Assembly: GCA_003024785.1 (NCBI GenBank)
Contig: PUQB01000061.1
Span: 709,714 to 773,713, forward strand
DNA from: Selaginella tamariscina
Taxonomy: Eukaryota; Streptophyta; Lycopodiopsida; Selaginellales; Selaginellaceae
DNA: 64,000 bases
Direction: 5' to 3'
The translations under genes and the position numbers were made by a program. Positions 9,278 through 49,958 of the stretch are shown in pieces; the stretch's first letter is position 1; the number at the start of each line of letters is the position of its first letter. The notes beneath the pieces were generated by a model. That model saw only the letters and a program-made list of their open reading frames with translations. It did no database searches and was not told the DNA's origin.

Positions 9278-9304
9278 ATGCAAGTTGTAACTAAAATGGG
9301 CATG
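9278..9304. repeat. left terminal inverted repeat, copy L
   Basis: It begins ATGCAAGTTGTAACTAAAAT and pairs with 24147-24173 at 25 of 27 positions, differing at positions 6 and 19. It is directly preceded by target duplication AAAG. Confidence 0.9.
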
Positions 9305-9775
9305 GCTATAGTCCCATTTCCTAATAATTAGCAATTTTAGCTATTTAATTAGCATTTTAATATTAAAGGAATATTCTTTAGAATATATGTTTGAAAAGAG
9401 AAATTCTTTAGAATATTCTATTTTGTATTCTACCCTTTAATAAATTTATAGCATTCATTGAACAAAATTAATACATTATAAAAGTAGAATGTATTAATTA
9501 TATAATATATTGCCTAATATAACAATTAAGGAAGAGCATAAGAGGTACATTATATAATATTGATGTTGTTATTAAAATATTAATATTTAATATAACATTA
9601 TTAATTAAAATTTGTAGTAGTAATAATATATATATAAAATCCTATAATAATATAGTCAATCTTCCATATCATTTTTAAATTTATATAGTTAAGTATACAA
9701 TTTGGTACTATTATTAAAGAGTTTATAATAATTATGAATATTAAATATATGATATTTTATAATTTTGTAATTGCT

Positions 9776-12700
9776 TTAAGCTTCAGAAAACATACATTCC
9801 TTGCAGTTTTGTAATCGTGACTTTATCAAACGCTTCTTGACATCCACCCATATCGAATGGATTTAACATTTAAAAAACATGCTGGGTCTTTTTGATTGGG
9901 AGCCATGTTTTTCTAGGCATCCATTATATCTTTCGCTCTCCTTCTGTGTCGCCTTTTTGTGGTTTGAACCATGCAACCTTAACAATACTATTTTTTGTGA
10001 TTACTTCAGGTGTGTCGATAATTTGACCCATCCAAATAGGCTGATTATATGACGCATCTGGAGTAATGAGAACCATCATTAGTTTTTGAAGATCTTGCAG
10101 CAATCAAGTATGCTTTAGGTTTTTGGTTCCTTTGTCCAACAAAGTGTGGGGTTTGCACTTCCACATCACTACTGGCTTCTTATGTCGTCTATGCTCAGTG
10201 ATGTCATTTCAATCTCCTCGCCACCTTGTTTTAGGCCAGAAAGGGTGTTGCAATTCTGTACTTGTGATAGTAGGCCCTTCCAACTCTCGAACAACAGTCT
10301 CCCAAATAGTTGACCACATGCTTATATAGTTCTGAGTAACCAGTTGCCTTATCAAAATTCTTTGGCATCGATTTTTGAACCCATGCCACATATTTTTTGA
10401 TGCCATCAATAATAACCTCTTGTTCCTTGAGCTGGGCACTCAATGGAATAGGGTCTGGTTGTCCTTCTGGGAGAAGTGGCTTTCCATCCTCTCCACTTTT
10501 GAAGAGCATTAAGCCCTCTTTCGGTAACCACTCCTGCTCTGATGGCCGTAACTTGTACTGCATAATAGGTATACCATCTCGTATGGAGAAAAAGAATTGT
10601 AGCGGCACAAGGTGACCAACTAAAGAATCACTCCCTTCTTTTATATACTCCTTGAGAAATTTTTTGAAGTCTGGCACCTCAGTCACAAGCAAAGCACAAC
10701 TTTTTTTGGAGATGCAATTTTCAAAAAGATTCATCATATGCGGTAAGGTAAGTGCACTTGTCCTTTTTGTAGAGTTGGAGACCTTGCTGAAGAACGCATC
10801 AATATCTTCATGAGTGTGACCAACCATAAGGAAACTGAGCGTGATTGTTTCAAACACACCTTTGGCAACAAGCATTGACAAGTATGCTAGCACATATCTA
10901 GAAAATAAAAGTAAGTATGAGCTTGAGAAACCCTTAAGTAAAATGATTTACCTATTTTTGTTCTCGCCTGCACAATTATCCATCTGTAAAAGCAAATGAC
11001 GAGGAAGCTTATTTGATGTTGAGGACACATGTACACTATTTGAGCTAGATCCCTCCACTGAACCTGAACTCTCAACAGGGCCATCTGTTTTTTGTGCAGG
11101 TTGCTGACAATGCCTCTCATATTCCCAAGTAGCCTCAAGTGCAGACGTGTTCATGAGAGCATTATGTAAAGGTTGAAGGTGTTGTTTCTTCACTTTGAGA
11201 TCACTGATAGGACTTGTCTGTGAGTGGGCTTCAAGGTTTCTGAAACACATGGCTAACGACCCAATAGTGAAATTGGAGTCGCTAGACCAATGTGGAAGTG
11301 AAAAGTGTCCATATGACTCACAACCGTGTCCATGTGTTAGCACACCTGTTAAAGAAATCGGAAGTTTCATGACATTTCCAAGGCACTTTGGTGTTGCAAA
11401 GAGCTTTGGAATGCTGGTCTTTGAATGATCCATCTTGTCATGGATCAAGCACAGGTACTCTGATGGGCGTGACACAGAAAGCATGCGGTGTGCATAGTAC
11501 TGAGACCGACAAGTTTGTTGTGCAATCATGTGGGCCTCCATCTTCCTTTGAATGGTAGTGATCTCCACCAAGGTTTTTGCACAAGCCTCTGCAGCCTTCA
11601 ATGATGTACAAGTGTCACACTTAGAAAAGCTAGAGTGTTTTGCAATCTCCACATCCTTAAAATGAGTATTCCATATGTTGTTGAAGGTACCAGTGCAGAT
11701 TGCTTGGAGCCCCATCAAACTGAGGCACTTGTTCACATGTTCACACAGTTTCAATTGAGTGTAGATTGAAGGTAAAACCTTGAGATTTTCCCTGACCCCT
11801 GCATTTGTGGTTCGGCATTTGTGAGGCATCCTGTCTGCATTTGCTTCCACAAAAGCCTTGAGTATCTCTATGGCTGCCATGATGTGAGAGCGGGTTTTGA
11901 CCAAGCCAGTGTTCCCATGAACTGAGGTTCGCGCTCCATCTAGCCACTCATCCCTCCGACGGTAGAACGTGGTCTTTGGGATCCCGTATATACTGTACCA
12001 AGCTTTGAAGCAGATGGCCACCTTATTAAATACCATGGATGTACTCTGATAACCTGTGTCCGAGGCCATTCCATCAATACACCCAGTTAGTGCAGCATAT
12101 ACAAACTCATGCCTTTGCTTTTGGGTGAGCATACGAAAGACATGTCTACATTGGGTAATTTCATTCCGGTCTGCCATCTGACAACACTTCTTCTTGCAAC
12201 AGTCAATCGTGGAAATGCTCGTAACACTTTCGGAAGATGTAGGATCCATCTTTACCCTCTTGCTGAAACTTGCAGGGGAAGATCTACAACCCATGAATCG
12301 CCTTTTTCTTACAATAGGACCAATGCAAGGAACCTCTTCAAATATGAGTTGTTCTTCCGGGTTGTTATTATTGAAATCCAACCCAGAATATGTTGAACCA
12401 TCTTGCCGTCTTAATTCAGATGTTCGCCACCTCACGAGGGATCCAGGATACAATGTGCCATTAGGTGAAACCTCTGTCACAACTACACCCACGAAGTCGG
12501 ACCCTAGTTTCTCTTCTGACACTGCTTCCATTGGATTTATAGCTGTGATGATGCCTCTTCCGACTTCAATCTCACGAAGAAAGAGAATCACCTCATCCAT
12601 CACAGCAGGCAAGCCATCATCTGGTAAACTCGTGCTACTATTTGTTTGTGACTCTGCATATTTGTGTCAGCCTTGACTTCATCCAAATTCCACAATACAG

Positions 12701-12887
12701 GAGAACCCTCCTCAAATTCCATTCCCAGAACCTCAACATGCTTGTAAATGGTGTTCACCCATACGTACACACAAGATCCTTGGGAAATATTGTGACATGA
12801 TGCATTATTATCTCGAACTTCCACAGTTCCAGTGCCAACTATCTCGTTGTTCCGAAGAAGACATACTTTATCTCCAGTATTAAACAT
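9776..12887 (-). pseudogene. DUF7869-like transposase gene, copy L (two coding exons, frameshifted)
   Basis: Inferred role: nuclear transposase of the element. The ATG at 12887 opens a small N-terminal domain (GDKVCLLRN...GTGTVEV..., then VLWNLDEVK) resembling plant DUF8039. The catalytic-looking part carries IHDKMDHSKTSIPK, then GVLTHGHGCESYGHF, then LLQMDNCAGENKNRYVL, then FLMVGHTHEDIDAFFSKVS. These match the DUF7869 pattern as I remember it, with candidate RNase-H-type acidic residues in the first and third blocks. A C-terminal module (PIWMGQII...VKVAWFKPQ) ends at TAA 9776-9778. A 54-bp GT-AG intron (10898-10951) splits NKNR from YVLAY. Exon 1 is open from 12612 to 10952; a lost A near 12660 separates it from the N-terminal part, and further shifts lie downstream of 10231. 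Transposase function is inferred. Confidence 0.75.
10898..10951 (-). other. 54-bp GT-AG intron in the transposase gene, copy L
   Basis: On the minus strand it reads AATAG/GTAAATC...TTTTCTAG/ATATGTG. Removing it joins ENKNR to YVLAYLSM in frame within the conserved block. The identical 54-bp intron occurs in copy R at 48288-48341. Confidence 0.85.
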
Positions 12888-12893
12888 ATTGTC

Positions 12894-14272
12894 CTGCACA
12901 TAAATAATTGTATTATTGATATCTGTTTATGCAATATTTTAAGAAATCTGAATTACGGTTACTTAATAATATGCATATGCAATAATACATAATTATGTTT
13001 AGAGATAATATCTCATGTTTGATTAATACAACTGATGGGCGGGATTAATCCCGCCCACGAATCCCTCCGACGAGGAACGGTCGGCGGGATTAATCCCGCC
13101 GCCGACTCAACCCCTTCGGAGAGAGTCGGCGGGATTAATCCCGCCTTGGACTCCCTCCGACAAGGAAGAGCCGGCGGGATTAATCCCGCCGCCTCTTCCT
13201 CCGACGGGGGAGTCCGGCGGGATTAATCCCGCCGCTCGATCAACCTTCGAGAGGTCGGCGGGATTAATCCCGCCTTGGACTCCCTCCGACAAGGAAGAGC
13301 CGGCGGGATTAATCCCGCCACTCTTCCTCCTCGGGGGGAGTCCGGCGGGATTAATCCCGCCGACTCTCTCCGACGAAGGTCGGCGGGATTAATCCGCCGA
13401 CTCTCTCCGACGAAGGTCGGCGGGATTAATCCCGCCGCCGACTCAACCCCTTCGGAGAGAGTCGGCGGGATTAATCCCGCCTTGGACTCCCTCCGACAAG
13501 GAAGAGCCGGCGGGATTAATCCCGCCGCCTCTTCTCCTCGGGGGGTCCGGCGGGATTAATCCCGCCGACTCTCTCCGACGAGGAAGGAGTCCGGCGGGAT
13601 TAATCCCGCCGACTCCCTTCCTCGTCGGAGAGAGTCGGCGGATTAATCCCGCCGGACTCCCTTCCCCGAGGAAGAGGCGGCGGGATTAATCCCGCCGGCT
13701 CTTCCTTGTCGGAGGGAGTCCAAGGCGGGATTAATCCCGCCCACAATTCTTACGACGGGGAATGGGTGGCGGGATTAAACCCGCACATAACTCTCTCCAA
13801 AACTATGATTTCAAAGAGATCTCGGGATAAATCCTGTCCCCAAATCTTTAAAACAGGAAGTGGTGGCGAGATTAATCCCGCCACCCCTTCCCTGCCTCCT
13901 AAAATGGTTGGCGGGATTAATCCCGCCGACAACTCTTTCTAATAAATTCTGGTAACTCTTCATCAGTTGAGAAGGTTATCGACGGGATTAATCCCGCCAC
14001 TCTTTTTCAGTGGCGGAGAAGCATTGCCCGGGAGATGGTGGCGGGATTAATCCCGCCACTTCTTCAAAGAGGCGAAAAAGAAATGGCCGGATTAATCCCG
14101 CCGCCCCGGTTAACCTAGAATATTAAGTTAAAAGGATATTTAAACGTGATAAATCCCTAACGGAATATATTATAATCCTAATGCATTTCTAAACCCCTAA
14201 ATTGTAATTTTAAGAGAGAATGTAAGAGAGTGAATCTTAATAAGTATTTTTAAATTTGTTTATAATACTTAC
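12894..14272 (-). other. possible 5' leader intron of the transposase gene, containing palindrome array A
   Basis: A strong 5' splice signal (TTTACAA/GTAAGTATT, minus strand) at 14272 and a 3' signal (TATGTGCAG/GACAATATG) at 12894 flank array A. The same pair exists in copy R (45249-46345). In the frame that would join the ATG exon there is an upstream stop and no ATG, so the upstream exon would be 5' untranslated. No transcript evidence is available. Confidence 0.4.
13038..14102. repeat. palindrome array A, copy L (GGCGGGATTAATCCCGCC, about 23 units)
   Basis: The 18-bp perfect palindrome GGCGGGATTAATCCCGCC recurs about every 35-50 bp. Some units carry single changes (e.g. GGCGAGATTAATCCCGCC). 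The spacers are themselves partly inverted repeats (CTCCGACGAGG / CCTCGTCGGAG types), so the whole block can fold into many hairpins. It lies just upstream of the transposase ATG, probably within a leader intron. Open frames crossing it (GGINPA repeats) are by-products of the repeat. Confidence 0.95.
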
Positions 14273-16580
14273 TTGTAAACAGCACTGAAGGCGCCGTGCT
14301 TTCCTATAAAGAATAGCACCCAATTTAATCTCGCTCCTGAGATGATCACTATGAAGAAAAAAGAAGATCTAAAGAGTGAAAAATACAGAAATGAAGAAAC
14401 CCTTGCCGGAGAAAGAACCAGATCTGAATTTGAGTGGGAAATTAAATGCATTTTCAAATTTACATGTCAGACCGACAATACATATGTCAGAAATTCAAAT
14501 TTTTTAAAAAGAACAGAAAATAAAATTTAAGATGAGTTGACACAAATATCCGACACTCTGACATATATACTCTCCAGTTCCAATGAGTATTTTAAAATTG
14601 CATTTAATGTTATTCAAGTGATTCAAGCTGTTTAATATTACGAAATTTTAGACTATATTCTACATTCTTAGTATTCAAGTATATTTTATTATATATATAT
14701 ATAAATATATACTTATACAATAAATAAATTGATATATTATTATGTATCATTTAAAATATATTCATAGTCTGTTTATTATTATTATTTTCTTAATTACTCG
14801 AGTATTTAGTTTTCATTTCCTAGTATCAATGGGATATTCTTTAATATTTTATTAATATTTGAAGAATATTCTAATATTAAACCTGATTATCATAATTAAA
14901 TTAGTCTTGTTCTTAATTATTGCAGTAATTATTCTACATTTGTATATATTAATGGGATTTTTCAATTAATTTGTTATTATTTCAAGAATATTCATGTGTT
15001 AAACCTTATTATCAATATTAAATTAATACACACTATGAACATATTTTAAATTATACATAATACATCATTTTATCTAATATATAGTCATATATAGTTTTAA
15101 TATATATATATTAATATCATTTCCTTAATTACTTGAGTAATTAATCTTCTTTATATTAATGGGATATTCTTTATTATTTTCTTATTATTCCAAGAATATT
15201 CCAATATTAAACATGATTATGATAATTAATTTAGTTAATTATTTGAGTACTTAATTTACATTTGTATATATTAATGGGATTTTCTCAATTAATTTCTTAT
15301 TATTTCAAGAATATTTCAATGTTAACCTTTTTATCAATATTAAATTAATATATATTTATTAAAACTATATATGGCTATATATTAGATAAAATCATATATT
15401 ATTATGTATAATTTAAAATATGTTCCTAGTGTGTTTATTAATTTTATTTTCTTAATTATTCGATGTTTGTTTTGCACACATATATAAACACAATCATAAA
15501 TTTACACACGCATTACAAGAACTTACAAAAACACATATGCACACACATGCACAACCCTAAACCAAACTGAAGAAATAGGTTGCTTCTTTATTGAAAACAT
15601 CATGTTCAACGCATGTATGATATATGTACTCAATCTGTGTGACTGTAACACATTGAATTTACATGTGTAATATTTATATTAAGCTTGTTGGGAGCAAACC
15701 CTAAACCCTAAACCCTAAACCCTAAACCCTAAACCCTAATATGTAACACAATGAATTTACTCATGTAATATGTATGTATGTCTGTGTGTATACACGTGTG
15801 CATGTATATATGTGTACTCTGTATGTATATATGTGTACTTTCTGTCTTCTCTCATACATACACACCATGCATGATCCATGTTAATATGTACTGTCTCTCT
15901 TCTCTCAAACATACACACCATGCATGATCTATAATATGTACTCGGTCTCTCTAATATTATGTACTAATATGTATGTATGTCTGTGTGTATAATACACACC
16001 ATGCATGATCCATAATATGTACTGTCTCTCTTCTCTCATATACTATGTATGTATATCTGTGTATAATATGTGTAAGTATATATGTGTACTAATATATGCA
16101 ATGTGTACAAAAATAATTTTTCAACACTCTCTCTTCTCTCATACATACACACCATGCATGATCCATCCTAAATCCAAAACCCTAAACCCTAAACCCTAAA
16201 CCCATGTAATATGTGTGTATGTCTGTGTGTATACACGTGTGTATGTATATATTATGTGTATTAATAATGCAATGTGTATGTATGTATTGATACACATGAA
16301 ACTTTAACACTCTCATGGACACACACATGTTAAATCCCTGCATGATTTATTTTTTGAGGTGTATGTGATACACCCACGCACACGCACGCGCTAATAATAT
16401 AATGAAAGAATATTCGTTTAGGGCGAATCTATATTTTATTCTTTTTAGGGTTTAAGTATATTCTCAGAAGGAATATTCTATTAGGGTTGATATATATATT
16501 TAATTCCTTTAGGGTTTAGGTATATTCTTAGGGTTTCAAGAGGCGGCGGCTGTGAAATCGGCGGCGGCGGCTGTGCACAC
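14103..16580. other. AT-rich non-coding core of copy L
   Basis: AT-rich sequence with repeated TTAATGGGATTTTC and TTATTCCAAGAATATTC motifs. Families of ATGTACT, CATGCATGATC and TCTCTTCTCTCAT words follow near 15840-16160. No gene is supported. Two telomere-like blocks lie within it. Confidence 0.7.
15697..15739. repeat. interstitial telomere-like repeat, (CCCTAAA)n, copy L
   Basis: About six consecutive CCCTAAA units, the Arabidopsis-type plant telomere repeat. A second short block of about three units sits at 16178-16202. Copy R has the corresponding blocks at 43788-43817 (about four units) and 43303-43326. Confidence 0.95.
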
Positions 16581-16584
16581 AGGT

Positions 16585-16590
16585 GAGATC

Positions 16591-16621
<31 letters not shown>

Positions 16622-16859
16622 ATATGTATAGGAGTGTGCGTATAATTTTATTTATTAGTTTTATCTCTCGCACACACACGCACACTCCTGTGTATGTATA
16701 TGTGTGTGGGTGTGTGTTTGTTTATCTGTATGATTTTATTTGTTTCGCTCACACACGCATACACACGATATACATATACACATATATATATATATACCTA
16801 TATACATACATACATATATTATGTGTACCAGTTCTGTAAATTTTTTTTATTGATCTTGC

Positions 16860-16943
<84 letters not shown>

Positions 16944-17005
16944 GTGTACCAGTATCTGTAAATTTTTTTTTATTGATCTATCTCTCCCACACACACGCGC
17001 ACTGC

Positions 17006-17042
<37 letters not shown>

Positions 17043-17712
17043 TATATATATATACAACACTAGTTTATATATATGCTTATATATTCATATGGGTTATATA
17101 TCTATATACACACATATATATATGTGTGTGTTTTTCTGTATAATTTTATTTATTTATTAGTTTTATCTCTCGCACACACACGCACACTCCTGTGTATGTA
17201 TATGTGTGTGTGTGTGTGTTTGTTTATCTGTATGATTTTATTTGTTTCGCTCACACACGCATACACACAATATACATATACACATATATATATACCTATA
17301 TACATATATACATACATACAACACTAGTATATATATGCTTATATATTCACAGACTCTCTCTCTTTCTCTATAGATTATATATCTATATACACACATATAT
17401 ATGTGTGTGTTTATCTGTATAATTTTATTTATTTATTAGTTTTATCTTTCGCACACACACGCACACTCCTGTGTATATATATATGTGTGTGTGTGTGTTT
17501 GTTTATCTGTATGATTTTATTTGTTTCGCTCACACGCATACACACGATATACATATACACACATATATATACCTATGTACACACATATATTAGGTGTACC
17601 AGTACTGTATAATTTTATTTATTTATCTATCTCTTGCACACACACGTACACTCCTATACATACATACATACATATATATACACACACACACATATATATG
17701 TGTGTGTTTTTA
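16585..17712. repeat. compound CA/TG/TA microsatellite region, copy L
   Basis: Long (CA)n, (TG)n and (TA)n runs, e.g. (AC)n near 16863-16912 and (TA)n after it. They are embedded in ~300-bp larger repeats sharing ATTTTATTTGTTTCGCTCAC and GTACCAGT words. The region can form Z-DNA, cruciform and hairpin structures. It is non-coding, and apparent frames are repeat artefacts. Confidence 0.9.
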
Positions 17713-17732
17713 TCTCGCTAAGCCCCTCGAGC

Positions 17733-19002
17733 GGCGGGATTAATCCCGCCGCTATATAGTTGGGGCCATGGCGGCGGGATTAATCCCGCCGCCGAGGCCC
17801 TTGCAGGCATGGCGGCGGGATTAATCCCGCCGCTCTACGACAAACCGAGGCGGCGGGATTAATCCCGCCGCCATGGCCTGCGTGAGGGGCCTCGGCGGCG
17901 GATTAATCCCGCCGCTCATCCATGCCCTGCGCGGAATGCGGCGGGATTTATCTCGCCGGCAATGGCCTGTGTGAAGGTTCTAATGGGCGGGATTAATCCC
18001 GCCGGATTCCGCGCAGGGCATTTAGGGAATGGGCGGCGGGATTAATCCCGCCGCTCCGAGGTCACGCAGGCCATGGGCGGCGGGATTAATCCCGCCGCCC
18101 AGGGAATTCACGCAGGATATGAACGCCGGGATTAATCCGGCCCCACGCTCATGCCCTTCGCGAGGGCGGCGGGATTAATCCCGCCGTTCATGTCCTGCGT
18201 GAATTCCCTGGGCGGCGGGATTAATCCCGCCCCCACCCATCCCTGTTCAAAAATGCCGCAGCCAATATATATGTGTGAGCGCATGATTTACGAGAGCGCA
18301 TGAGCCCTTACATGGTGGGCGGGATTAATCCCGCCGTGTACGCATGCCCTGCGCGGAATCGGGCGGGATTTATCCCGCCGCCATTGGCCTGCCTGAAGGG
18401 CCTAGGCGGCGGGATTAATCCCGCAAGATTTCGCACAGGGCCTGGGAGGCGGGATTAATCCCGCCGAACGCCAATGCCCTGTGCGAATCGGGCGGGATTT
18501 ATCCCGCCGCCATTGGCCTGCCTGAAGTGCCTAGGCGGCGGATTAATCCCGCCCGATTCCGCGCAGGGAATTGGCGTCCGGCGGGATTAATCCCGCCGCA
18601 TAGGGATCGAGTGAAGGCCCTGGGCGGCGGGATTAATCCCGCCGAGTCTTCAATGCCTGTTGGAGAATGAATCCGCCACCCTTCCTTTTTCTCCATTGGT
18701 GAGTGGACCAATCCCAAACGTTTCTGTCTGAGACGTAGAAGGTTTACAACATACCAATGGAGGACTGGGAAGGGTGGCGAATTCATTTAACCATCCCTTA
18801 CATGGTGGGCGAGATTAATCCCGCCTCCTTTCTGGAGTCACTGAAGGGGTGTGAGAAATAAATCCTGCCCAGTTCTCTCTGAGACCGAGAAGGGTGGCAA
18901 GATTAATTCCGCACTCCCGTTCAAGGCCTCCAGAAAGGTGGCGAGATTAATCCCGCCCACTCTTTCAGGAGGCATTGAAGGGGTGGCGAGATTAATCCCG
19001 CC
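17733..19002. repeat. palindrome array B, copy L (about 25 units)
   Basis: This has the same 18-bp palindrome as array A with different spacers (CCCTGCGCGGAAT, AGGCCATGG, CCTGCGTGAAGGGCC types). A region at 18665-18790 lacks the palindrome and instead holds a long inverted repeat around CACCCTTCC...CTCCATTGGT / ACCAATGGAG...GGAAGGGTGG. The array lies upstream of gene 2. Confidence 0.95.
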
Positions 19003-19116
19003 GCACCTTCCATGTGAATATATATGTGTATTAGTATATATAAGTTGCATATCTCATTTTATTTACTTTTATCATCTTATCATAATATTTCGAGTAAAAG
19101 CTAGGAATCTATGTAA

Positions 19117-19203
19117 AACTGTCCAGAGCTCACATTTGTGGTGGTTCTAAAACGAAATGTTATCTTTCTTTTGCACTAACACAAATGTGAGCTTCGGACA
19201 GTT
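19117..19203. repeat. conserved hairpin upstream of gene 2, copy L
   Basis: Inverted repeat with 24-nt arms (19117-19140 and 19180-19203; 22 of 24 paired) and a 39-nt loop; the core arm is GAGCTCACATTTGTG. It is preserved in copy R at 40030-40116. It lies about 140 bp before the first recognised coding ATG of gene 2. It could be a promoter cruciform, a structured leader or a small-RNA precursor. Confidence 0.75.
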
Positions 19204-19367
19204 AATTACGTCTACTTCTCTCTGTGTATTATTTTTGTATATTCGGGTTTATACAAGTGTGTGTGCGTTTTTATATAATTTATATTATAGTGTATTATTT
19301 TGCAGAAGGACGATTTGATCAAACAAGGAGATCGAGTCATTAGTATGGAGTCGTCGTCAAATTCTGG

Positions 19368-19428
19368 GTAAGAATTAAAATAAAATCTGTTATACTCGGA
19401 TACTTGAACTAATCATTTTTGTATTCAG
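19368..19428 (+). other. 61-bp GT-AG intron 1 of gene 2, copy L
   Basis: TTCTGG/GTAAGAATT...GTATTCAG/ATGTGG joins NSG to CGIE in frame. The same 61-bp intron occurs at 39804-39864 in copy R. An acceptor-like TTTTGCAG before 19306 suggests another exon upstream. Confidence 0.75.
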
Positions 19429-20743
19429 ATGTGGAATTGAGTGACATTAAAGACAAGAGCAGGAGAAGAGATGGGCAGGGGGATTCTGGAATCAACTTGG
19501 CCATATTTTAAGATAAATGGGAAGCGCATTGGAGCAACCATGGTTGCTGTCAAATTAACCTCTGTCACATCTCATGGACAAGCAAAACAATGGAAAGTGA
19601 TTCGCTAGTCAAGCACCCGAAAGCAGGCTGCGAACCCAGATTGGACGATGCTCGACAGATATGCCTTGTTCCATCCAATGTCACGTTCTCGGATCCAGAG
19701 GTCGTCAGTTACAACATTAATCTCGGGTGGTTTTGTCGACTTGTGGATAATGACGTTCACGTGTTCACTAATGATGTTGACCTTGGAGTTCTTCTTCAAC
19801 TCAACGAAAGCCCATCTATGGAGGGGATCCATCTGGATGTCTACTTCGAAGATCTTCAGACTCATCGAGTAGGTGTATTGTCAGGAGATATTGCTTCACA
19901 ATACAGAAAATCAGCAAGTGGAGCAATCTTCCCTCTTGACATTGAAGAAGAACACAGCGACATCATAAGGGAGATTGAGAAGGTGGCTCGGTCTCAGGTT
20001 CTCTACAGATCACGTTCAATTTGCTTAGGAAGCTTCGGGAGCTGGAGAGTGTGCCGAGAACACTAGAACAGCTGCAGTCGGGGATCACACATGTTGATTC
20101 GGATCGCAAAAGAAAATCATCAATCGTTTTGTCAGCTGCACCTGTGGCATCTCATGCTGCAATAAGTCACAAGGAAATGATGTTGGATGATAAGATTTAT
20201 CCTTGTAGGGTTAAATATTGCAGCGTCAACCCAAACTTCAATTACAGGCCACTCAACCAGGAACGTGTAGCTGAGCTCATGGAGAAGATGAAGGACGACA
20301 ATTCTTATACCGTTCCACATAATGCTGTTTTGTGTCCATACTATGAAAGAAGGAAGGGTGCTGACAAAGTCTGGATCACAACACCAGAACAACTCATGAA
20401 GATTCAGACGGAGAATAAAAGATCTATCAAGTACTACATCATTAGTGGCCAGCACACAATAACGGCAGCCCAACGACTTCTCGATGAACACAACAAAGGA
20501 ACGATGGCAACAAAACTTTCCGAGCATACCCGTGAGAAGCTGACAAAAAGATCGGCGTTTTTAGCTAAGCCGAATCTCACAATCGAGCAGTACCATAAGT
20601 TATCGGCGGAATGGGACGCTGCCGACACCAACCACTACAACAGCAAAATATGGGAGAAGTTTAAACACACGCGAGCCGTGTGGGAATCTCTTCAGCGACC
20701 ACAAAGAGCTACCGCAGGGAATACACAATCTGCGGAATACCGG

Positions 20744-20804
20744 GTAAGCAAATTGTTTGGGCGGGATTTATCTCGCCGGTATATTAATCTGTCTTTTTCC
20801 TCAG
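20744..20804 (+). other. 61-bp intron 2 of gene 2 containing one palindrome, copy L
   Basis: TACCGG/GTAAGCAAATTG...TTTTTCCTCAG/AGAGTTGAAG joins AEYR to RVEEIAAVDF in frame. A variant palindrome GGCGGGATTTATCTCGCC occupies 20760-20777 inside it. Copy R has the identical arrangement (intron 38429-38489, palindrome 38456-38473). Confidence 0.8.
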
Positions 20805-21647: not shown

Positions 21648-21700
21648 GTATTTATTATTGAATTCATGCTTGCGCTCTTCACTGATACCTACTTTTTCAG
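21648..21700 (+). other. 53-bp intron 3 of gene 2, copy L
   Basis: ATAGAAG/GTATTTATTATTG...CTTTTTCAG/GTATTTATTTC joins YIEG to IYFLILAHV in frame; identical in copy R (37532-37584). Confidence 0.8.
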
Positions 21701-23886: not shown

Positions 23887-24146
23887 AAAAATTAACATGT
23901 TGATAAGAAAATGATTTCATTTGTAATTATGTTTGATAGTATTTCTTCATTATTGTAAACTATTTTTAGAATAATATGAATATTCTAAGATATTTTAGGA
24001 ATATTCCTTACTAAGTAAGGTTATTGAAGGATTAATTAATTAATTAATAATATTTAAGGCTTAATTACATATTAATTAAATGATTAATTAATAATTAAAA
24101 CTTAAGTATTAATTAGTATTTTATTTATATTCCCATTTTCACGTAT

Positions 24147-24173: not shown

Positions 24174-24177
24174 AAAG

Positions 24178-25622: not shown

Positions 25623-25624
25623 AC

Positions 25625-36514: not shown

Positions 36515-36786
36515 TCTGACATGTGGCACAAGAAATTGTCGCCAAACCCCTCTCTTACCTCATGGCAATGCTGAAAATCCATGTTCTCAATTATTTCATT
36601 ACATCTGCAAAATGATAATTAGCTGACCTTAAAATTATCAAGGTATATTATTTACCTTGTTAATGTGTGACCCATGTTTGAACTAAAAGCTTCATTAATC
36701 CTTGAGAATTTATTTTCTGTACAAATATAAAAGAAATATACAAAAATGCCTTATGTTACACTCATTTACAACTATTCATCACTCTA

Positions 36787-39700: not shown

Positions 39701-39887
39701 AATGCGCTTCCCATTTATCTTAAAATATGGCCAAGTTGATTCCAGAATCCCCCTGCCCATCTCTTCTCCTGCTCTTGTCTTTAATGTCACCTCAATTCCA
39801 CATCTGAATACAAAAATGATTAGTTCAAGTATCCGAGTATAACAGATTTTATTTTAATTCTTACCCAGAATTTGACGACGACTCCAT
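36787..39887 (-). pseudogene. ParB/methyltransferase-like gene, copy R
   Basis: Same exon plan as copy L: ATG 39887; introns 39804-39864, 38429-38489 and 37532-37584. Here the third coding exon is intact, giving one open frame from about 38428 to 37585 that includes the lysine-rich linker and the VMDRR position. The next exon runs openly through WTGFYMNDANPKCID and WVFDYCTRGSVLKECYL to 37047, where a one-base loss precedes the acidic tail (stop at 36787). The first frame change, between the GRGILES and MESDSLV segments, is shared by both copies. It is therefore ancestral: an unrecognised intron, two proteins, or an old lesion. Confidence 0.6.
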
Positions 39888-40029
39888 ACTAATGACTCGA
39901 TCTCCTTGTTTGATCAAATCGTCCTTCTGCAAAATAATACACTATAAATATAAATTATATAAAAACGCACACACACTTGTATAAACCCGAATATACAAAA
40001 ATAATACACAGAGAGAAGTAGACGTAATT

Positions 40030-40116
40030 AACTGTCCGAAGCTCACATTTGTGTTAGTGCAAAAGAAAGATAACATTTCGTTTTAGAACCACCACAAATG
40101 TGAGCTCTGGACAGTT
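40030..40116. repeat. conserved hairpin upstream of gene 2, copy R
   Basis: Counterpart of 19117-19203; both arms are preserved. Confidence 0.75.
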
Positions 40117-40229
40117 TTACATAGATTCCTAGCTTTTACTCGAAATATTATGAAAGATGATAAAAGTAAATAAAATGAGATATGCAACTTATATATACTA
40201 ATACACATATATATTCACATGGAAGGTGC

Positions 40230-41766
40230 GGCGGGATTAATCTCGCCACCCCTTCAATGCCTCCTGAAAGAGTGGGCGGGATTAATCTCGCCACCTTTCT
40301 GGAGGCCTTGAACGGGAGTGCGGAATTAATCTTGCCACCCTTCTCGGTCTCAGAGAGAACTGGGCAGGATTTATTTCTCACACCCCTTCAGTGACTCCAG
40401 AAAGGAGGCGGGATTAATCTCGCCCACCATGTAAGGGATGGTTAAATGAATTCCCACCCTTCCCAGTCCCTCCATTGGTATGTTGTAAACCTTCTACGTC
40501 TCAGACAGAAACGTTTGGGATTGGTCCACTCACCAATGGAGAAAAAGGAAGGGTGGCGGATTCATTCTCCAACAGGCATTGAAGACTCGGCGGGATTAAT
40601 CCCGCCGCCCAGGGCCTTCACTCGGTCCCTATGCGGCGGGATTAATCCCGCCGGACGCCAATTCCCTGCGCGGAATCGGGCGGGATTAATCCCGCCGCCT
40701 AGGCACTTCAGGCAGGCCAATGGCGGCGGGATAATCCCGCCCGATTTCGCACAGGGCAATTGGCGTCGGCGGGATTAATCCCGCCTCCCAGGCCCTTCAC
40801 TCGGGCCTTAGTCGGCGGGATTAATCCCGCCGAACGCCAATGCCCTGTGCGAAATCTTGCGGGATTAATCCCGCCGCCTAGGCCCTTCAGGCAGGCCAAT
40901 GGCGGCGGGATAAATCCCGCCCGATTCCGCGCAGGGCATGCGTACGCGGCGGGATTAATCCCGCCCACCATGTAAGGGATGGTGAAATTAATCCCACCAC
41001 CCTTCTCGGTTCCCTCCATTGGTATTTTGTAAACCTTCTCCGTCTCAGACAGAGTTAGTCGGGATTGATTCAACATACCAATGGGGTAATGAAGGTTCGG
41101 AGATTAATCTCGCCACCGGGTAATGAAGGTTCGGAGGCTAATCCCGCCGCCCTCTCGTAAATCATGCGCTCACACATATATATTGGCTGCGGCATTTTTG
41201 AACAGGGATGGGTGGGGCGGGATTAATCCCGCCGCCCAGGGAATTCACGCAGGACATGAACGGCGGGATTAATCCCGCCGCCCTCCGCGAAGGGCATGAG
41301 CGTGGGGCCGGATAAATCCCGCCGTTCATGTCCTGCGTGAATTCCCTGGGGCGGGATTAATCCCGCCGCTCTACGACAAACCGAAGAGCGGCGGGATTAA
41401 TCCTGCCGCCCATTCCCTGTAAATGCCCTGCGCGGAATCCGGCGGGATTAATCCCGCCCATTAGAACCTTCACACAGGCCATTGCCGGCGAGATAAATCC
41501 CGCCGCATTCCGCGCAGGGCATGGATGAGCGGCGGGATTAATCCCGCCGCCGAGGCCCCTCACGCAGGCTATGGGCGGCGGGATTAATCCCGCCGCTCTT
41601 CGGTTTGTCGTAGAGCGGCGGGATTAATCCCGCCGCCCATAGCCTGCGTGAAGGGCCTCGGCGGCGGGATTAATCCCGCCGCTCACCCATGCCTGAAGGG
41701 CCTCGGCGGCGGGATTAATCCCGCCGCCATGGCCCCAACTATATAGCGGCGGGATTAATCCCGCCG
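40230..41766. repeat. palindrome array B, copy R
   Basis: About 30 units of GGCGGGATTAATCCCGCC and variants, ~270 bp longer than array B of copy L. The inverted-repeat cassette built on CTCCATTGG / CCAATGGAG appears twice (about 40440-40562 and 40976-41085) against once in copy L. Confidence 0.95.
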
Positions 41767-41789
41767 CTCGAGGGGCTTAGCGAGATAAA

Positions 41790-42458
41790 AACACACACAT
41801 ATATATGTGTGTGTGTGTATATATATGTATGTATGTATGTATGTATAGGAGTGTACGTGTGTGTGCAAGAGATAGATAAATAAATAAACTTATACAGTAC
41901 TGGTACACCTAATATATGTGTGTACATAGGTATATATATGTGTGTATATGTATATCGTGTGTATGCGTGTGAGCGAAACAAATAAAATCATACAGATAAA
42001 CAAACACACACACACACATATATATATACACAGGAGTGTGCGTGTGTGTGCAAAGATAAAACTAATAAATAAATAAAATTATACAGATAAACACACACAT
42101 ATATATGTGTGTATATAGATATATAATCTATAGAGAAAGAGAGAGAGTCTGTGAATATATAAGCATATATATAAACTAGTGTTGTATGTATGTATATATG
42201 TATATAGGTATATATATATGTGTATATGTATATTGTGTGTATGCGTGTGTGAGCGAAACAAATAAAATCATACAGATAAACAAACACACACACACACACA
42301 TATACATACACAGGAGTGTGCGTGTGTGTGCGAGAGATAAAACTAATAAATAAATAAAATTATACAGATAAACACACACATATATATATGTGTGTATATT
42401 ATGAATATATAAGCATATATATAAACTAGTGTTGTATACTATTTGTTAATATGCATTG

Positions 42459-42525
<67 letters not shown>

Positions 42526-42611
42526 GTGTGTGTGTGTGTGTGTGTGTAAAGCAGTGCGCGTGTGTGTGGGAGAGATAGATCAATAAAAAAAATTTACAGA
42601 TACTGGTACAC

Positions 42612-42666
<55 letters not shown>

Positions 42667-42891
42667 AAAGCAAGATCAATAAAAAAAATTTACAGATACT
42701 GGTACACATAATATATGTATGTATATATGTATATAGGTATATATATATATATGTGTATATGTATATCGTGTGTATGCGTGTGTGAGCGAAACAAATAAAT
42801 CATACAGACACATATACATACACAGGAGTGTGCGTGTGTGTGCGAGAGATAAAACTAAGAAAAAAAATTATACGCACACTCCTATACATAT

Positions 42892-42924
<33 letters not shown>

Positions 42925-42926
42925 GA
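41790..42926. repeat. compound CA/TG/TA microsatellite region, copy R
   Basis: Mirror of 16585-17712. It includes a very long (TA)n run at about 42462-42522 that is not present at the same length in copy L. Confidence 0.9.
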
Positions 42927-45418
42927 TCTCACCTGTGTGCACAGCCGCCGCCGCCGATTTCACAGCCGCCGCCTCTTGAAACCCTAAGAATATACCTAAA
43001 CCCTAAAGGAATTAAATATATATATCAACCCTAATAGAATATTCCTTCTGAGAATATACTTAAACCCTAAAAAGAATAAAATATAGATTCGCCCTAAACG
43101 AATATTCTTTCATTATATTATTAGCGCGTGCGTGTGTGTGGGTGTATCACATACACCTCAAAAATATAAATCATGCAGGGATTTAACATGTGTGTGTCCA
43201 TGAGAGTGTTAAAGTTTCATGTGTACACATTGCATATATTAATACACATAATATATACATACACACGTGTATACACACAGACATACACACATATTACATG
43301 GGTTTAGGGTTTAGGGTTTAGGGTTTTGGATTTAGGATGGATCATGCATGGTGTGTATGTATGAGAGAAGAGAGAGTGTTGAAAAATTATTTTTGTACAC
43401 ATTGCATATATTAGTACACATATATACTTACACATATTATACACAGATATACATACATAGTATATGAGAGAAGAGAGACAGTACATATTAATATGGATCA
43501 TGCATGGTGTGTATTATACACACAGACATACATACATATTAGTACATAATATTAGAGAGACCGAGTACATATTATAGATCATGCATGGTGTGTATGTTTG
43601 AGAGAAGAGAGACAGTACATATTAACATGGATCATGCATGGTGTGTATGTATGAGAGAAGACAGAAAGTACACATATATACATACAGAGTACACATATAT
43701 ACATACAGAGTACACATATATACATGCACACGTGTATACACACAGACATACATACATATTACATGAGTAAATTCATTGTGTTACATATTAGGGTTTAGGG
43801 TTTAGGGTTTAGGGTTTGCTCCCAACAAGCTTAATATAAATATTACACATGTAAATTCAATGTGTTACATATACACAGATTGAGTACATATATCATACAT
43901 GCGTTGAACATGATGTTTTCAATAAAGAAGCAACATATTTCTTCAGTTTGGTTTAGGGTTGTGCATGTGTGTGCATATGTGTTTTTGTAAGTTCTTGTAA
44001 TGCGTGTGTAAATTTATGATTGTGTTTATATATGTGTGCAAAACAAACATCGAATAATTAAGAAAATAAAATTAATAAACACACTAGGAACATATTTTAA
44101 ATTATACATAATAATATATGATTTTATCTAATATATAGCCATATATAGTTTTAATAATATATATTAATTTAATATTGATAAAAAGGTTTAACATTGAAAT
44201 ATTCTTGAAATAATAAGAAATTAATTGAGAAAATCCCATTAATATATACAAATGTAAATTAAGTACTCAAATAATTAACTAAATTAATTATCATAATCAT
44301 GTTTAATATTGGAATATTCTTGGAATAATAAGAAAATAATAAAGAATATCCCATTAATATAAAGAAGATTAATTACTCAAGTAATTAAGGAAATGATATT
44401 AATATATATATTATTAAAACTATATATGACTATATATTAGATAAAATGATGTATTATTATGTATAATTTAAAATATGTTCATAGTGTGTATTAATTTAAT
44501 ATTGATAATAAGGTTTAACACATGAATATTCTTGAAATAATAACAAATTAATTGAGAAAATCCCATTAATATATACAAATGTAGAATAATTACTGCAATA
44601 ATTAAGAACAAGACTAATTTAATTATGATAATCAGGTTTAATATTAGAATATTCTTCAAATATTAATAAAATATTAAAGAATATCCCATTGATACTAGGA
44701 AATGAAAACTAAATACTCGAGTAATTAAGAAAATAATAATAATAAACAGACTATGAATATATTTTAAATGATACATAATAATATATCAATTTATTTATTG
44801 TATAAGTATATATTTATATATATATATATAATATAAATATACTTGAATACTAAGAATGTAGAATATAGTCTAAAATTTCGTAATATTAAACAGCTTGAAT
44901 CACTTGAATAACATTAAATGCAATTTTAAAATACTCATTGGAACTGGAGAGTATATATGTCAGAGTGTCGGATATTTGTGTCAACTCATCTTAAATTTTA
45001 TTTTCTGTTCTTTTTAAAAAATTTGAATTTCTGACATATGTATTGTCGGTCTGACATATAAATTTGAAAATGCATTTAATTTCCCACTCAAATTCAGATC
45101 TGGTTCTTTCTCCGGCAAGGGTTTCTTCATTTCTGTATTTTTCACTCTTTAGATCTTCTTTTTTCTTCATAGTGATCATCTCAGGAGCGAGATTAAATTG
45201 GGTGCTATTCTTTATAGGAAAGCACGGCGCCTTCAGTGCTGTTTACAAGTAAGTATTATAAACAAATTTAAAAATACTTATTAAGATTCACTCTCTTACA
45301 TTCTCTCTTAAAATTACAATTTAGGGGTTTAGAAATGCATTAGGATTATAATATATTCCGTTAGGGATTTATCACGTTTAAATATCCTTTTAACTTAATA
45401 TTCTAGGTTAACCGGGGC
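42927..45418. other. AT-rich non-coding core of copy R with telomere-like blocks
   Basis: Counterpart of 14103-16580. Telomere-like (TTTAGGG)n blocks lie at 43303-43326 and 43788-43817, followed by AT-rich sequence. The candidate leader exon of the transposase ends at 45248 (GTTTACAA/GTAAGT). Confidence 0.7.
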
Positions 45419-46198
45419 GGCGGGATTAATCCGGCCATTTCTTTTTCGCCTCTTTGAAGAAGTGGCGGGATTAATCCCGCCACCATCTCCCGGGCAATGC
45501 TTCTCCGCCACTGAAAAAGAGTGGCGGGATTAATCCCGTCGATAACCTTCTCAACTGATGAAGAGTTACCAGAATTTATTAGAAAGAGTTGTCGGCGGGA
45601 TTAATCCCGCCAACCATTTTAGGAGGCAGGGAAGGGGTGGCGGGATTAATCTCGCCACCACTTCACTGTTTTAAAGATTTGGGGACAGGATTTATCCCGA
45701 GATCTCTTTGAAATCATAGTTTTGGAGAGAGTTATGTGCGGATTTAATCCCGCCACCCATTCCCCGTCGTAAGAATTGTGGCGGGATTAATCCCGCCTTG
45801 GACTCCCTCCGACAAGGAAGAGCCGGCGGGATTAATCCCGCCGCCTCTTCCTCCGACGAGGAAGGGAGTCCGGCGGGATTAATCCCGCCGACTCTCTCCG
45901 GCGAGGATGAGTCGGCGGGATTAATCCCGCCGGACTCCCTTCCTCGTCGGAGAGAGTCGGCGGGATTAATCCCGCCGGACTCCCCCGAGGAGGAAGAGGC
46001 GGCGGGATTAATCCCGCCGGCTCTTCCTTGTCGGAGGGAGTCCAAGGCGGGATTAATCCCGCCGACTCTCTCCGAAGGGGTTGAGTCGGCGGCGGGATTA
46101 ATCCCGCCGACTCTCTCCGAAGGGGTTGAGTCGGCGGCGGGATTAATCCCGCCGACCGTTCCTCGTCGGAGGGATTCGTTGGCGGGATTAATCCGCCC
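45419..46198. repeat. palindrome array A, copy R
   Basis: About 17 units of the 18-bp palindrome, ~285 bp shorter than array A in copy L. Internal units have been lost or gained while the flanks are conserved. It lies inside the candidate leader intron 45249-46345. Confidence 0.95.
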
Positions 46199-46351
46199 AT
46201 CAGTTGTATTAATCAAACATGAGATATTATCTCTAAACATAATTATGTATTATTGCATATGCATATTATTAAGTAACCGTAATTCAGATTTCTTAAAAAT
46301 ATTGCATAAACAGATATCATAAATAATACAATTATTTATGTGCAGGACAAT

Positions 46352-49300
46352 ATGTTTAATACTGGAGATAAAGTATGTCTTCTTCGGAACAACGAGATAG
46401 TTGGCATTGGAACTGTGGAAGTTCGAGATAATAATGCATCATGTCACAATATTTCCCAAGGATCTTGTGTGTACGTATGGGTGAACACCATTTTCAAGCA
46501 TGTTGAGGTTCTGGGAATGGAATTTGAGGAGGGTTCTCCTGTATTGTGGAATTTGGATGAAGTCAAGGCTGACACAAAATATGCAGAGTCACAAACAAAT
46601 AGTAGCACGAGTTTACCAGATGATGGCTTGCCTGCTGTGATGGATGAGGTGATTCTCTTTCTTCGTGAGATTGAAGTCGGAAGAGGCATCATCACAGCTA
46701 TAAATCCAATGGAAGCAGTGTCAGAAGAGAAACTAGGGTCCGACTTCGTGGGTGTAGTTGTGACAGAGGTTTCACCTAATGGCACATTGTATCCTGGATC
46801 CCTCGTTGAGGTGGCGAACATCTGAATTAAGACGGCAAGATGGTTCAACATATTCTGGGTTGGATTTCAATAATAACAACCCGGAAGAAGAACAACTCAT
46901 ATTTGAAGAGGTTCCTTGCATTGGTCCTATTGTAAGAAAAAGGCGATTCATGGGTTGTAGATCTTCCCCTGCAAGTTCAGCAAGAGGGTAAAGATGGATC
47001 CTACATCTTCCGAAAGTGTTACGAGCATTTCCACGATTGACTTTGCAAGAAGAAGTGTTGTCAGATGGCAGACCGGAATGAAATTACCCAATGTAGACAT
47101 GTCTTTCGTATGCTCACCCAAAAGCAAAGGCATGAGTTTGTATATGCTGCACTAACTGGGTGTATTGATGGAATGGCCTCGGACACAGGTTATCAGAGTA
47201 CATCCATGGTATTTAATAAGGTGGCCATCTGCTTCAAAGCTTGGTACAGTATATACGGGATCCCAAAGACCACGTTCTACCTCGTCGGATGAGTGGCTAG
47301 ATGGAGCGCGAACCTCAGTTCATGGGAACACTGGCTTGGTCAAAACCCGCTCTCACATCATGGCAGCCATAGAGATACTCAAGGCTTTTGTGGAAGCAAA
47401 TGCAGACAGGATGCCTCACAAATGCCGAACCACAAATGCAGGGGTCAGGGAAAATCTCAAGGTTTTACCTTCAATCTACACTCAATTGAAACTGTGTGAA
47501 CATGTGAACAAGTGCCTCAGTTTGATGGGGCTCCAAGCAATCTGCACTGGTACCTTCAACAACATATGGAATACTCATTTTAAGGATGTGGAGATTGCAA
47601 AACACTCTAGCTTTTCTAAGTGTGACACTTGTACATCATTGAAGGCTGCAGAGGCTTGTGCAAAAACCTTGGTGGAGATCACTACCATTCAAAGGAAGAT
47701 GGAGGCCCACATGATTGCACAACAAACTTGTCGGTCTCAGTACTATGCACACCGCATGCTTTCTGTGTCACGCCCATCAGAGTATCTGTGCTTGATCCAT
47801 GACAAGATGGATCATTCAAAGACCAGCATTCCAAAGCTCTTTGCAACACCAAAGTGCCTTGGAAATGTCATGAAACTTCCGATTTCTTTAACAGGTGTGC
47901 TAACACATGGACACGGTTGTGAGTCATATGGACACTTTTCACTTCCACATTGGTCTAGCGACTCCAATTTCACTATTGGGTCGTTAGCCATGTGTTTCAG
48001 AAACCTTGAAGCCCACTCACAGACAATCCTATCAGTGATCTCAAAGTGAAGAAACAACACCTTCAACCTTTACATAATGCTCTCATGAACACGTCTGCAC
48101 TTGAGGCTACTTGGGAATATGAGAGGCATTGTCAGCAACCTGCACAAAAAACAGATGGCCCTGTTGAGAGTTCAGGTTCAGTGGAGGGATCTAGCTCAAA
48201 TAGTGTACATGTGTCCTCAACATCAAATAAGCTTCCTCGTCATTTGCTTTTACAGATGGATAATTGTGCAGGCGAGAACAAAAATAGGTAAATCATTTTA
48301 CTTAAGGGTTTCTCAAGCTCATACTTACTTTTATTTTCTAGATATGTGCTAGCATACTTGTCAATGCTTGTTGCCAAAGGTGTGTTTGAAACAATCACGC
48401 TCAGTTTCCTTATGGTTGGTCACACTCATGAAGATATTGATGCGTTCTTCAGCAAGGTCTCCAACTCTACAAAAAGGACAAGTGCACTTACCTTACCGCA
48501 TATGATGAATCTTTTTGAAAATTGCATCTCCAAAAAAAGTTGTGCTTTGCTTGTGACTGAGGTGCCAGACTTCAAAAAATTTCTCAAGGAGTAATAAAAG
48601 AAGGTGATTCTTTAGTTGGTCACCTTGTGCCGCTACAATTCTTTTCTCCATACGAGATGGTATACCTATTATGCAGTACAAGTTACGGCATCAGAGCAGG
48701 AGTGGTTACCGAAAGAGGGCTTAATGCTCTTCAAAAGTGGAGAGGATGGAAAGCCACTTCTCCCAGAAGGACAACCAGACCCTATTCCATTGAGTGCCCA
48801 GCTCAAGGAACAAGAGGTTTATTGATGGCATCAAAAATATGTGGCATGGGTTCAAAATCGATGCCAAAGAATTCTGATAACAACTGGTTACTCAGAACTA
48901 TATAAGCATGTGGTCAATATTGGGAGACTGTTGTTCGAGAGTTGGAAGGCCTACTTGTCACAAGTACAGAATTGCAACACCTTTCTGGCCAAAACAAGGT
49001 GGCGAGGAGATTGAAATGACTCACGAGCACAGACGACATAGAAGCCAGTTAGTGATGTGGAAGTGCAAACCCCACACTTTGTTGGACAAAGGAACCAAAA
49101 ACCTAAAGCATACTTTGATTGCTGCAAGGATCTTCAAAAACTAATGATGGTTCTCATTACTCCAGATGCGTCATATAATCAGCCTATTTGGATGGGTCAA
49201 ATTATCGACACACCTGAAGTAATCACAAAAAATAGTATTGTTAAGGTTGCATGGTTCAAACCACAAAAAAGGCGACACGAGAAGGAGAGCGAAAGATATA

Positions 49301-49452
49301 ATGGATGCCTAGAGAAAACATGGTCTCCCAATCAAAAAGACCCAGCATGTTTTATAAATGTTAAATCCATTCGATATGGGTGGATGTCAAGAAGCGTTGA
49401 TAAAGTCACGATTAACAAAACTGCAAGGGAATGTATGTTTTCTGAAGCTTAA
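46352..49452 (+). pseudogene. DUF7869-like transposase gene, copy R (several frameshifts)
   Basis: Same protein as copy L. The N-terminal domain is intact here from ATG 46352 to about 46810, where an extra T shifts the frame; this region is shifted in copy L. Other breaks are near 46985, 47045, 47285, 48010, 48590 and 48660. The 54-bp intron is 48288-48341. FLMVGHTHEDIDAFFSKV lies just after it. The C-terminal module with PIWMGQIIDT and SRSVDKVTINKTARECM is open to the TAA at 49450-49452. More lesions than copy L suggest this copy is the more decayed one. Confidence 0.75.
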
Positions 49453-49931
49453 AGCAATTACAAAATTATAAAATATCATATATTTAATATTCATAATTAT
49501 TATAAACTCTTTAATAATAGTACCAAATTGTATACTTAACTATATAAATTTAAAAAATGATATGGAAGATTGACTATATTATTATAGGATTTTATATATA
49601 TATTATTACTACTACAAATTTTTAATTAATAATGTTATATTTAAATATTAATATTTTAATAACAACATCAATATTTATATAATGTACCTCTTATGCTCTT
49701 CCTTAATTGTTATATTAGGCAATATATATATAATTTAATACATTCTACTTTTTTAATGTTATTAATTTTTGTTCAATGAATGCTATAATTTATTAAAGGG
49801 TAGAATACAAAATAGAATATTCTAAAGAATATTCTCTTTTCAAACATATATTCTAAAGAATATTCCTTTAATATTAGAAAATGCTAATTAAATAGCTAAA
49901 ATTGCTAATTATTAGGAAATGGGACTATAGC

Positions 49932-49958
49932 CATGCCCATTTTAGTTACAACTTGCAT
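49932..49958. repeat. terminal inverted repeat, transposase-side end, copy R
   Basis: Reverse complement begins ATGCAAGTTGTAACTAAAAT, identical to the left end of copy L. Followed by TCTT. Confidence 0.9.

Follow-up and report, generated by a model that had tools for sequence, protein, structure and literature searches.

A 15-kb DNA transposon with two accessory genes and palindrome arrays, recently amplified in the genome of Selaginella tamariscina

Two copies of one element and their borders

The stretch analysed here, called the window, comprises 64,000 nt of contig PUQB01000061.1 (positions 709,714 to 773,713, forward strand; assembly GCA_003024785.1) of Selaginella tamariscina. It contains two near-identical copies, in opposite orientation, of an element of about 15 kb. 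The element encodes a DUF7869 protein, i.e. the putative transposase, a protein termed gene 1 and an FCP1/NIF-type protein termed gene 2, and it carries two arrays of an 18-bp palindrome. The mobility of the element is well supported: it has been inserted repeatedly with common ends, 4-bp target duplications flank most of the end pairs analysed, and its amplification is recent. A preliminary description of the sequence had proposed both copies, 27-bp terminal inverted repeats (TIRs) and a distinct perfect 4-bp target duplication for each copy. All of these were confirmed, and the coordinates of the copies are exact to the base:

9278 to 24173, plus strand: element copy A, 14,896 bp
9274 to 9277: left target duplication of copy A, AAAG
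24174 to 24177: right target duplication of copy A, AAAG
9278 to 9304, plus strand: TIR of copy A, A-type end (ATGCAAG...), 25/27 positions matching
24147 to 24173, minus strand: TIR of copy A, C-type end (ATGCACG...)
35051 to 49958, minus strand: element copy B, 14,908 bp
35047 to 35050: left target duplication of copy B, TCTT
49959 to 49962: right target duplication of copy B, TCTT
33925 to 34563, minus strand: empty target site related to that of copy A, with one AAAG

In both copies 25 of the 27 TIR positions match, and the similarity ends there. Aligned blocks of more than 500 bp are 94–99% identical between the copies when indels are counted, and the substitution distance over two gene segments is 0.0033 (0.33%); the length differences lie mostly in minisatellite regions. 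The different flanks and the differing duplications support the earlier view that the copies are independent insertions of a DNA transposon. A search for empty sites, also proposed earlier, was successful in part. A relative of the copy A flanks lies in the same window, with 476 of 641 alignment columns identical across the junction and one AAAG, although the alignment is gappy close to the junction.

For comparison, we inspected element ends elsewhere in the genome. All 17 inward-facing pairs of unlike ends that are 10–18 kb apart were selected by eye among the first 100 listed places, yielding, together with the two window copies, a sample of 19 pairs. A perfect 4-bp duplication abuts the terminal base in 12 of the 19 pairs (AAAG, TCTT, AAGA, TAGA, CGTT, CTAT, TGGT, ATAA, ATTG, AAGG, TATC and ATGT), and all 12 differ as written, while only about 0.1 of 19 pairs would be expected to have one by chance. 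The fraction includes pair C42, which was re-paired with a second end after the nearest end had failed (11/19 as first paired), and pair C80, which has two candidate left ends. These are two C-type ends of the same orientation, 249 bp apart (C80:563731 and 563980), and only the inner one yields a matching duplication. At another place (C1:2394829-2395104), two C-type ends face each other at a distance of about 220 bp, as if two copies had been inserted adjacently.

Copy number, age and silencing footprint

The host assembly has a size of 300.7 Mb in 1391 contigs. The preliminary description had proposed searching it for the ends and the transposase, and we extended the search to the two accessory genes. 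With up to two mismatches, the end pattern was found at 3905 places (1998 + 1907). The gene probes were 30-base patterns, each present exactly once in each of 12 copies that were read, and with the same tolerance they were found at 1905 places for the transposase (980 + 925), 1849 places for gene 1 (927 + 922) and 1922 places for gene 2 (968 + 954). The reversed controls yielded no place for any of the four patterns. The accessory genes are thus about as numerous as the transposase gene. The gene counts are about half of the number of ends, which suggests that it was the 15-kb element in its complete form that was amplified.

The relative positions of the genes were also recorded. For at least 32 of 48 transposase places, gene 1 is found on the same strand at a distance of 7.9–10.1 kb, and for three it is on the wrong side; the former value is a lower bound because it is based on exact matches on nine contigs from the first-hundred lists. 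Ten copies fetched whole have an average length of 14.5 kb, so that 1905 copies would amount to about 27.7 Mb, or about 9% of the assembly, assuming that every copy is full length.

The amplification is recent. The mean substitution distance among 11 of the 12 copies read is 0.0067 (about 0.7%), and an open frame of 301 residues, comprising exon 2 of gene 1 and a little intron on each side, has a 100% match, free of stops, at each of the 131 places scored. The remaining copy (C69:365814-379738) is an older relative, which is diverged by 0.033 (about 3.3%), has fewer palindromes (12 exact ones) and lacks a matching duplication.

To characterize the substitutions, this older copy was left out. 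Of 147 singleton substitutions, 94 are C>T or G>A. Their frequencies per site depend on the sequence context, i.e. 20/402 for CG, 33/508 for CHG and 41/2359 for CHH (chi2 41, p 1e-9). The excess at CG and CHG is the footprint expected of plant-like methylation, and therefore the copies have probably been targets of silencing.

Genes and palindrome arrays of the element

Three gene identities had been proposed in the preliminary description, i.e. a DUF7869-like transposase, an FCP1-like phosphatase and a ParB-methyltransferase-like protein. The first two family assignments held, and no homology or library search supports the ParB-METHYLTRANSFERASE reading of gene 1, which is weighed below. The genes have the following positions:

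10952 to 12887, minus strand: exon 1 of the transposase gene in copy A, beginning with MFNTGDKV; frame broken near 12668
10898 to 10951: transposase intron, copy A; deduced from GT-AG and from conservation of ENKNR/YVLAY at the junction
9780 to 10897, minus strand: transposase exon 2, copy A; DUF7869 motif GHTHEDID, frame breaks, low end approximate, C-terminus placed by copy B
46352 to 49452, plus strand: transposase gene, copy B; frame breaks
19471 to 20743, plus strand: exon 1 of gene 1 in copy A; frame broken near 19590 and near 20045
20805 to 21647, plus strand: exon 2 of gene 1 in copy A; frame broken near 21280 (open frame in copy B)
21701 to 22441, plus strand: gene 1 exon 3, copy A; frame break, end approximate
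36791 to 39760, minus strand: gene 1 in copy B; frame open in exon 2 (38428-37585) and broken elsewhere, approximate low end
22718 to 23886, plus strand: gene 2, FCP1/NIF-type, copy A; start approximate, frame breaks, family from copies B and C65
35338 to 36510, minus strand: gene 2 (NIF) in copy B; approximate ends, broken frame

The putative transposase has about 1014 aa in two exons, as read from copy C84, and matches Pfam DUF7869 with an E value of 8.8e-47. Among 5.8 billion proteins it has two homologues, with 34% and 31% identity, and a profile search returned the same two. All three proteins share IHDKMD, Q.DN followed by NKNR, and VGHTHEDID. It is plausible from these sequences that the invariant acidic motifs IHDKMD, Q.DN and GHTHEDID contain the catalytic DDE/D residues. 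A pattern scan of viral contigs matched 44 stretches, none of which was confirmed as a relative, and phage tblastn searches for viral relatives of the transposase and of the ParB-like piece of gene 1 yielded one match each, at E 2 and E 8.

Gene 2 contains a NIF domain, and the match covers the entire domain (E 1.5e-12). The copy C65 protein scores 47.9 bits against PF03031, for which the gathering cutoff is 21.8, and the copy B piece scores 22.4 bits. The DxD motif is the catalytic motif of the FCP1/NIF-type HAD phosphatases. Gene 2 shares with these enzymes the whole domain and the DDS motif and differs from them in the nucleophile motif, DVNGV. Phosphatase activity is therefore uncertain, because the second Asp of DxD is replaced by Asn. 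The sequences in PDB gave unrelated matches to gene 2, with E 0.4 or worse.

The model of gene 1 has about 954 aa in three inferred exons; a further intron of 26 bp near 19985 was dropped because copies C46 and C65 read through it. No homologue was found at E ≤0.001 among 7358 word-sharing candidates from the 5.8 billion proteins, with words drawn from the first 500 residues, a database of uncertain plant coverage and no search of the host genome aimed at relatives of gene 1 outside the element. By sequence comparison, gene 1 is thus an orphan.

The palindrome, GGCGGGATTAATCCCGCC, occurs at 29–44 sites (≤2 mismatches) in each of the 12 copies and at 27,128 exact places genome-wide, with none for the reversed control. 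Its arrays, the copy number and the equal gene counts are new relative to the preliminary description. In the window copies the palindromes are mostly about 45 bp apart and form two clusters, the first immediately 5′ of the transposase gene and the second on the 5′ side of gene 1 (all sites with ≤2 mismatches):

13038 to 14102: palindrome array 1, copy A, 21 sites, 5′ of the transposase gene
17733 to 19002: palindrome array 2, copy A, 21 sites, 5′ of gene 1
20760 to 20777: single palindrome, inferred intron 1 of gene 1, copy A
45419 to 46198: palindrome array 1, copy B, 15 sites
40230 to 41765: palindrome array 2, copy B, 24 sites
38456 to 38473: single palindrome, inferred intron 1 of gene 1, copy B

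The centre of the element contains other repeats, i.e. short interstitial telomere-like (AAACCCT)n arrays in an AT-rich part (15696-15739 and 16167-16203) and a large CA/TA microsatellite block with a tandem unit of 279 bp (16640-17700). Outside of the two copies, the window includes two fragments that resemble long terminal repeat (LTR) retrotransposons, of Gypsy type by their frames, which have the same orientation and are 95% identical (1-3540 and 27073-30614), another Gypsy-type LTR-retrotransposon-like coding region (50814-54888) and, at its right end, an inverted pair of about 1.8 kb with 97.6% identity (56629-58457 and 62181-64000).

Interpretation and comparison with known systems

We consider it likely that the element is a very large cut-and-paste DNA transposon, possibly of Sola type, with a possible VANC-like regulatory or anti-silencing module. 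The DUF7869 protein would be the transposase, an RNase-H-type DDE/D enzyme, which would cut at the ATGCA...TGCAT ends and insert with a 4-bp stagger. Genes 1 and 2 would be structural parts of the element and not captured passengers. The palindrome arrays, which precede each of the two divergent transcription units on the 5′ side, with one further site in a gene 1 intron, in the manner of the VANC target motifs of VANDAL elements, would be bound by an element-encoded DNA-binding protein, with gene 1 as the candidate, and this binding would regulate transcription or relieve host silencing. The function of the module is read from the layout only. We propose only tentatively that an element protein, possibly that of gene 1, binds the arrays for one of these purposes, and it is quite unlikely that the NIF-type protein helps through an effect on a phosphoprotein, for instance the polymerase tail.

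Under a more far-reaching reading, which we regard as rather unlikely, the element would represent a new lineage of giant DNA transposons with its own sequence-specific anti-silencing (or replication/segregation-like) system, in which an orphan protein unrelated to VANC acts on the approximately 27,000 palindromes. As a rule, families of DNA transposons expand in the form of short, deleted derivatives, and the complete element is rare. If true, the system would have let the complete 15-kb element, not deleted derivatives, recently occupy about 9% of a 300-Mb genome.

Several observations weigh against the transposon interpretation or against parts of it. Seven of the 19 end pairs lack a duplication (C3, C7, C29, C69, C87, C91 and C108); they are uninformative about the border, because the ends were located by pattern, and they could result from recombination between near-identical copies or from assembly chimeras. 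Judged by frame lengths, all 12 copies read are broken in at least one gene, and an open transposase frame is present only in C84. Single-base indels outnumber substitutions in several copies, and part of the breakage may for that reason be assembly error. For the transposase, the PDB sequences gave unrelated matches with E 0.4 or worse and no match to a solved structure, and the AlphaFold model of its homologue P0001, from an alignment of four rows, has a mean predicted local distance difference test (pLDDT) value of 40. Both predicted models, this one and that of the ParB-like piece of gene 1, are too poor to use, and the RNase-H fold is therefore putative. In gene 1, no DNA-binding or methyltransferase domain is detectable, so that position is what links it to the arrays. 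Among the first 100 listed palindrome places, all of which are on one contig and were compared with the copies by eye, one (C1:2071485) seems to be outside a copy. The high CpG observed/expected ratios of the copy A arrays (1.18 and 1.05, compared with 0.41 on the transposase side, 0.75 on the other gene side and 0.52–0.75 in the flanks) may result from base composition or recent expansion alone. Finally, the Sola assignment is based on published descriptions of features, not on a comparison of transposase sequences.

On this basis, the Sola superfamily or a close relative is, with moderate confidence, the most likely superfamily. The Sola descriptions report DDD transposases, 4-bp duplications, TIRs of 11–1124 bp, sizes of mostly 2–9 kb with some >15 kb, and presence in moss (PMC10741241, PMC9033089). 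The element shares the duplications (12/19 pairs), the TIRs (27 bp, within that range) and the size, and the acidic motifs of its putative transposase may correspond to DDD residues. The preliminary description regarded the element as undescribed-looking; its duplications, TIRs and large size are all within the range published for Sola. The Sola features, and the precedent of Sola2 elements with an extra Fanzor1 gene (PMC3627910), also speak for an ordinary Sola-superfamily element, perhaps already present in repeat libraries, which became long by minisatellite growth and by picking up two host genes. That is a real possibility, if somewhat short of an even chance. The Sola descriptions compared, as far as these excerpts reach, include neither the orphan gene nor the NIF gene nor the palindrome arrays, and gene 1 is matchless in the protein search (of uncertain plant coverage), unlike a recently captured common gene. 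It also counts against an ordinary Sola element that DUF7869 is not mentioned in open PubMed Central papers. Among the matches listed from the same literature no such element was found, nor did a term search of a review on gene capture in plant transposons return anything, and for all of these results repeat libraries were outside the scope.

The arrays could have a simpler origin, either as promoter-type sites for a host factor, since GGCGGGA resembles an E2F half-site, or as plain selfish minisatellites. This is nearly as credible as its opposite: the arrays are positioned 5′ of both genes, tandem arrays grow readily, and the number of sites varies between 29 and 44 among 12 copies. In contrast, the strict plant E2F consensus is scarce on both strands of copy A (TTTCCCGC 0, TTTSGCGS 1), and the sites seem to be confined to the element, with none elsewhere in the window and 99 of the first 100 listed genomic places in copies. 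The E2F-site reading of the palindrome itself was rejected, because the strict consensus is nearly absent from copy A. Neither the scarcity nor the confinement is decisive against a host factor or minisatellites in general.

Genes 1 and 2 might be passive cargo that was acquired by gene capture, as in Pack-type elements, and has no role in transposition. The family that includes the NIF domain is widespread among eukaryotes, and captured genes are common in plant transposons. We regard this as unlikely in view of the accessory genes being as numerous as the transposase gene and of the frame of gene 1 exon 2 being identical and open at 131 places. The equal counts are not decisive, because cargo that was amplified in a single burst would give the same counts.

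The identification of gene 1 as a ParB-methyltransferase was rejected on negative profile, homology and motif tests. It could still combine a strongly diverged ParB fold with an inactive methyltransferase of the N6/N4 type, with the palindromes as parS-like sites, which we consider improbable. ParB proteins bind palindromes, and DPPY/W is the catalytic motif of the N6/N4 DNA methyltransferases. By motif reading, YYIISGQHTITAAQRLL is similar to the box II region of ParB and WVFDYCTRGSVLKECYLRHTCVFAVEKD to motif I of methyltransferases. The 954-aa model lacks both DPPY and DPPW, and the look-alike of box II is GQHT, without the P-motif arginine. Neither ParB nor methyltransferase families were found for gene 1 in Pfam (searched with pieces), PHROGs or NCBIfam, which yielded weak unrelated matches only. 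In the PDB sequences, the ParB-like piece had no match, and the methyltransferase-like piece matched only the designed repeat protein dTor (E 1.9e-6, with no single stretch passing). In hhalign comparisons, gene 1 scored below all 12 shuffled or reversed controls with a methyltransferase profile of 114 rows. A ParB profile aligned to the expected helix and outscored 10 of the 12 controls, the other 2 scoring higher, with a probability of 0.3%; this test is weak because the profile had just three rows. The structure predicted from the single sequence of the ParB-like piece has a mean pLDDT of 37, and of two viral-contig stretches matching this piece in a pattern scan none was confirmed. Phage fusions of ParB and N6_N4 methyltransferases have been published, and replacement of the P-motif arginine abolished nucleotide binding in that work (PMC12704722). 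Compared with the fusions as described there, the likeness of gene 1 is a short motif resemblance only, and it differs in having no profile match, P-motif arginine or DPPY motif.

A segmental duplication or assembly artefact, suggested by the location of both copies on one contig among other duplicated repeats and by many single-base indels, can practically be dismissed as the origin of the two window copies, which have different flanks, differing perfect duplications, opposite orientation and approximately 1900 places of the element genome-wide against it, and it is refuted by exact borders shared at unrelated sites.

Returning to the transposon interpretation, other superfamilies agree less well with the element. 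Ginger elements are defined by an integrase-like (rve) core, and the rve domain is absent from the 1014-aa transposase at E ≤10. The ends of CACTA (En/Spm) elements begin with CACTA, those of the present element with ATGCA. Kolobok and piggyBac are characterized by TTAA target duplications (PMC9587614), and TTAA is found among 0 of the 12 duplications. The composite-like KolobokP, as far as described there, is likewise a eukaryotic DNA transposon with an accessory gene, and the element differs from it in having no long terminal direct repeats in the window self-comparison (PMC9587614).

The presence of a ~15-kb element at nearly two thousand places is an unusually large burst for a DNA transposon, and its extra parts look like helpers. 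This raises the question of how so large an element, whose copies bear a CG/CHG methylation footprint, could escape from silencing, and the palindrome arrays and the orphan gene are the obvious candidates. VANDALs are Mutator-like elements, and VANC proteins are of the DUF1985 type, for which the pieces of gene 1 had no Pfam match. In Arabidopsis, tandemly repeated VANC target motifs lie upstream of the transposase gene as well as within introns of the accessory gene, and their number varies between copies (PMC5735166). The element shares the accessory gene beside the transposase and the motif arrays upstream of the transposase, with one intron site only; the arrayed copies of the VANC21 motif (YAGTATTAY) all have the same orientation (PMC5735166), whereas the motif of the element is a perfect palindrome. 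The two systems are alike in layout but not in sequence: the element does not belong to the VANDALs, and gene 1 has no signs of VANC. If the proposed function is true, the arrays and gene 1 would constitute a second, unrelated case of VANC-like action.

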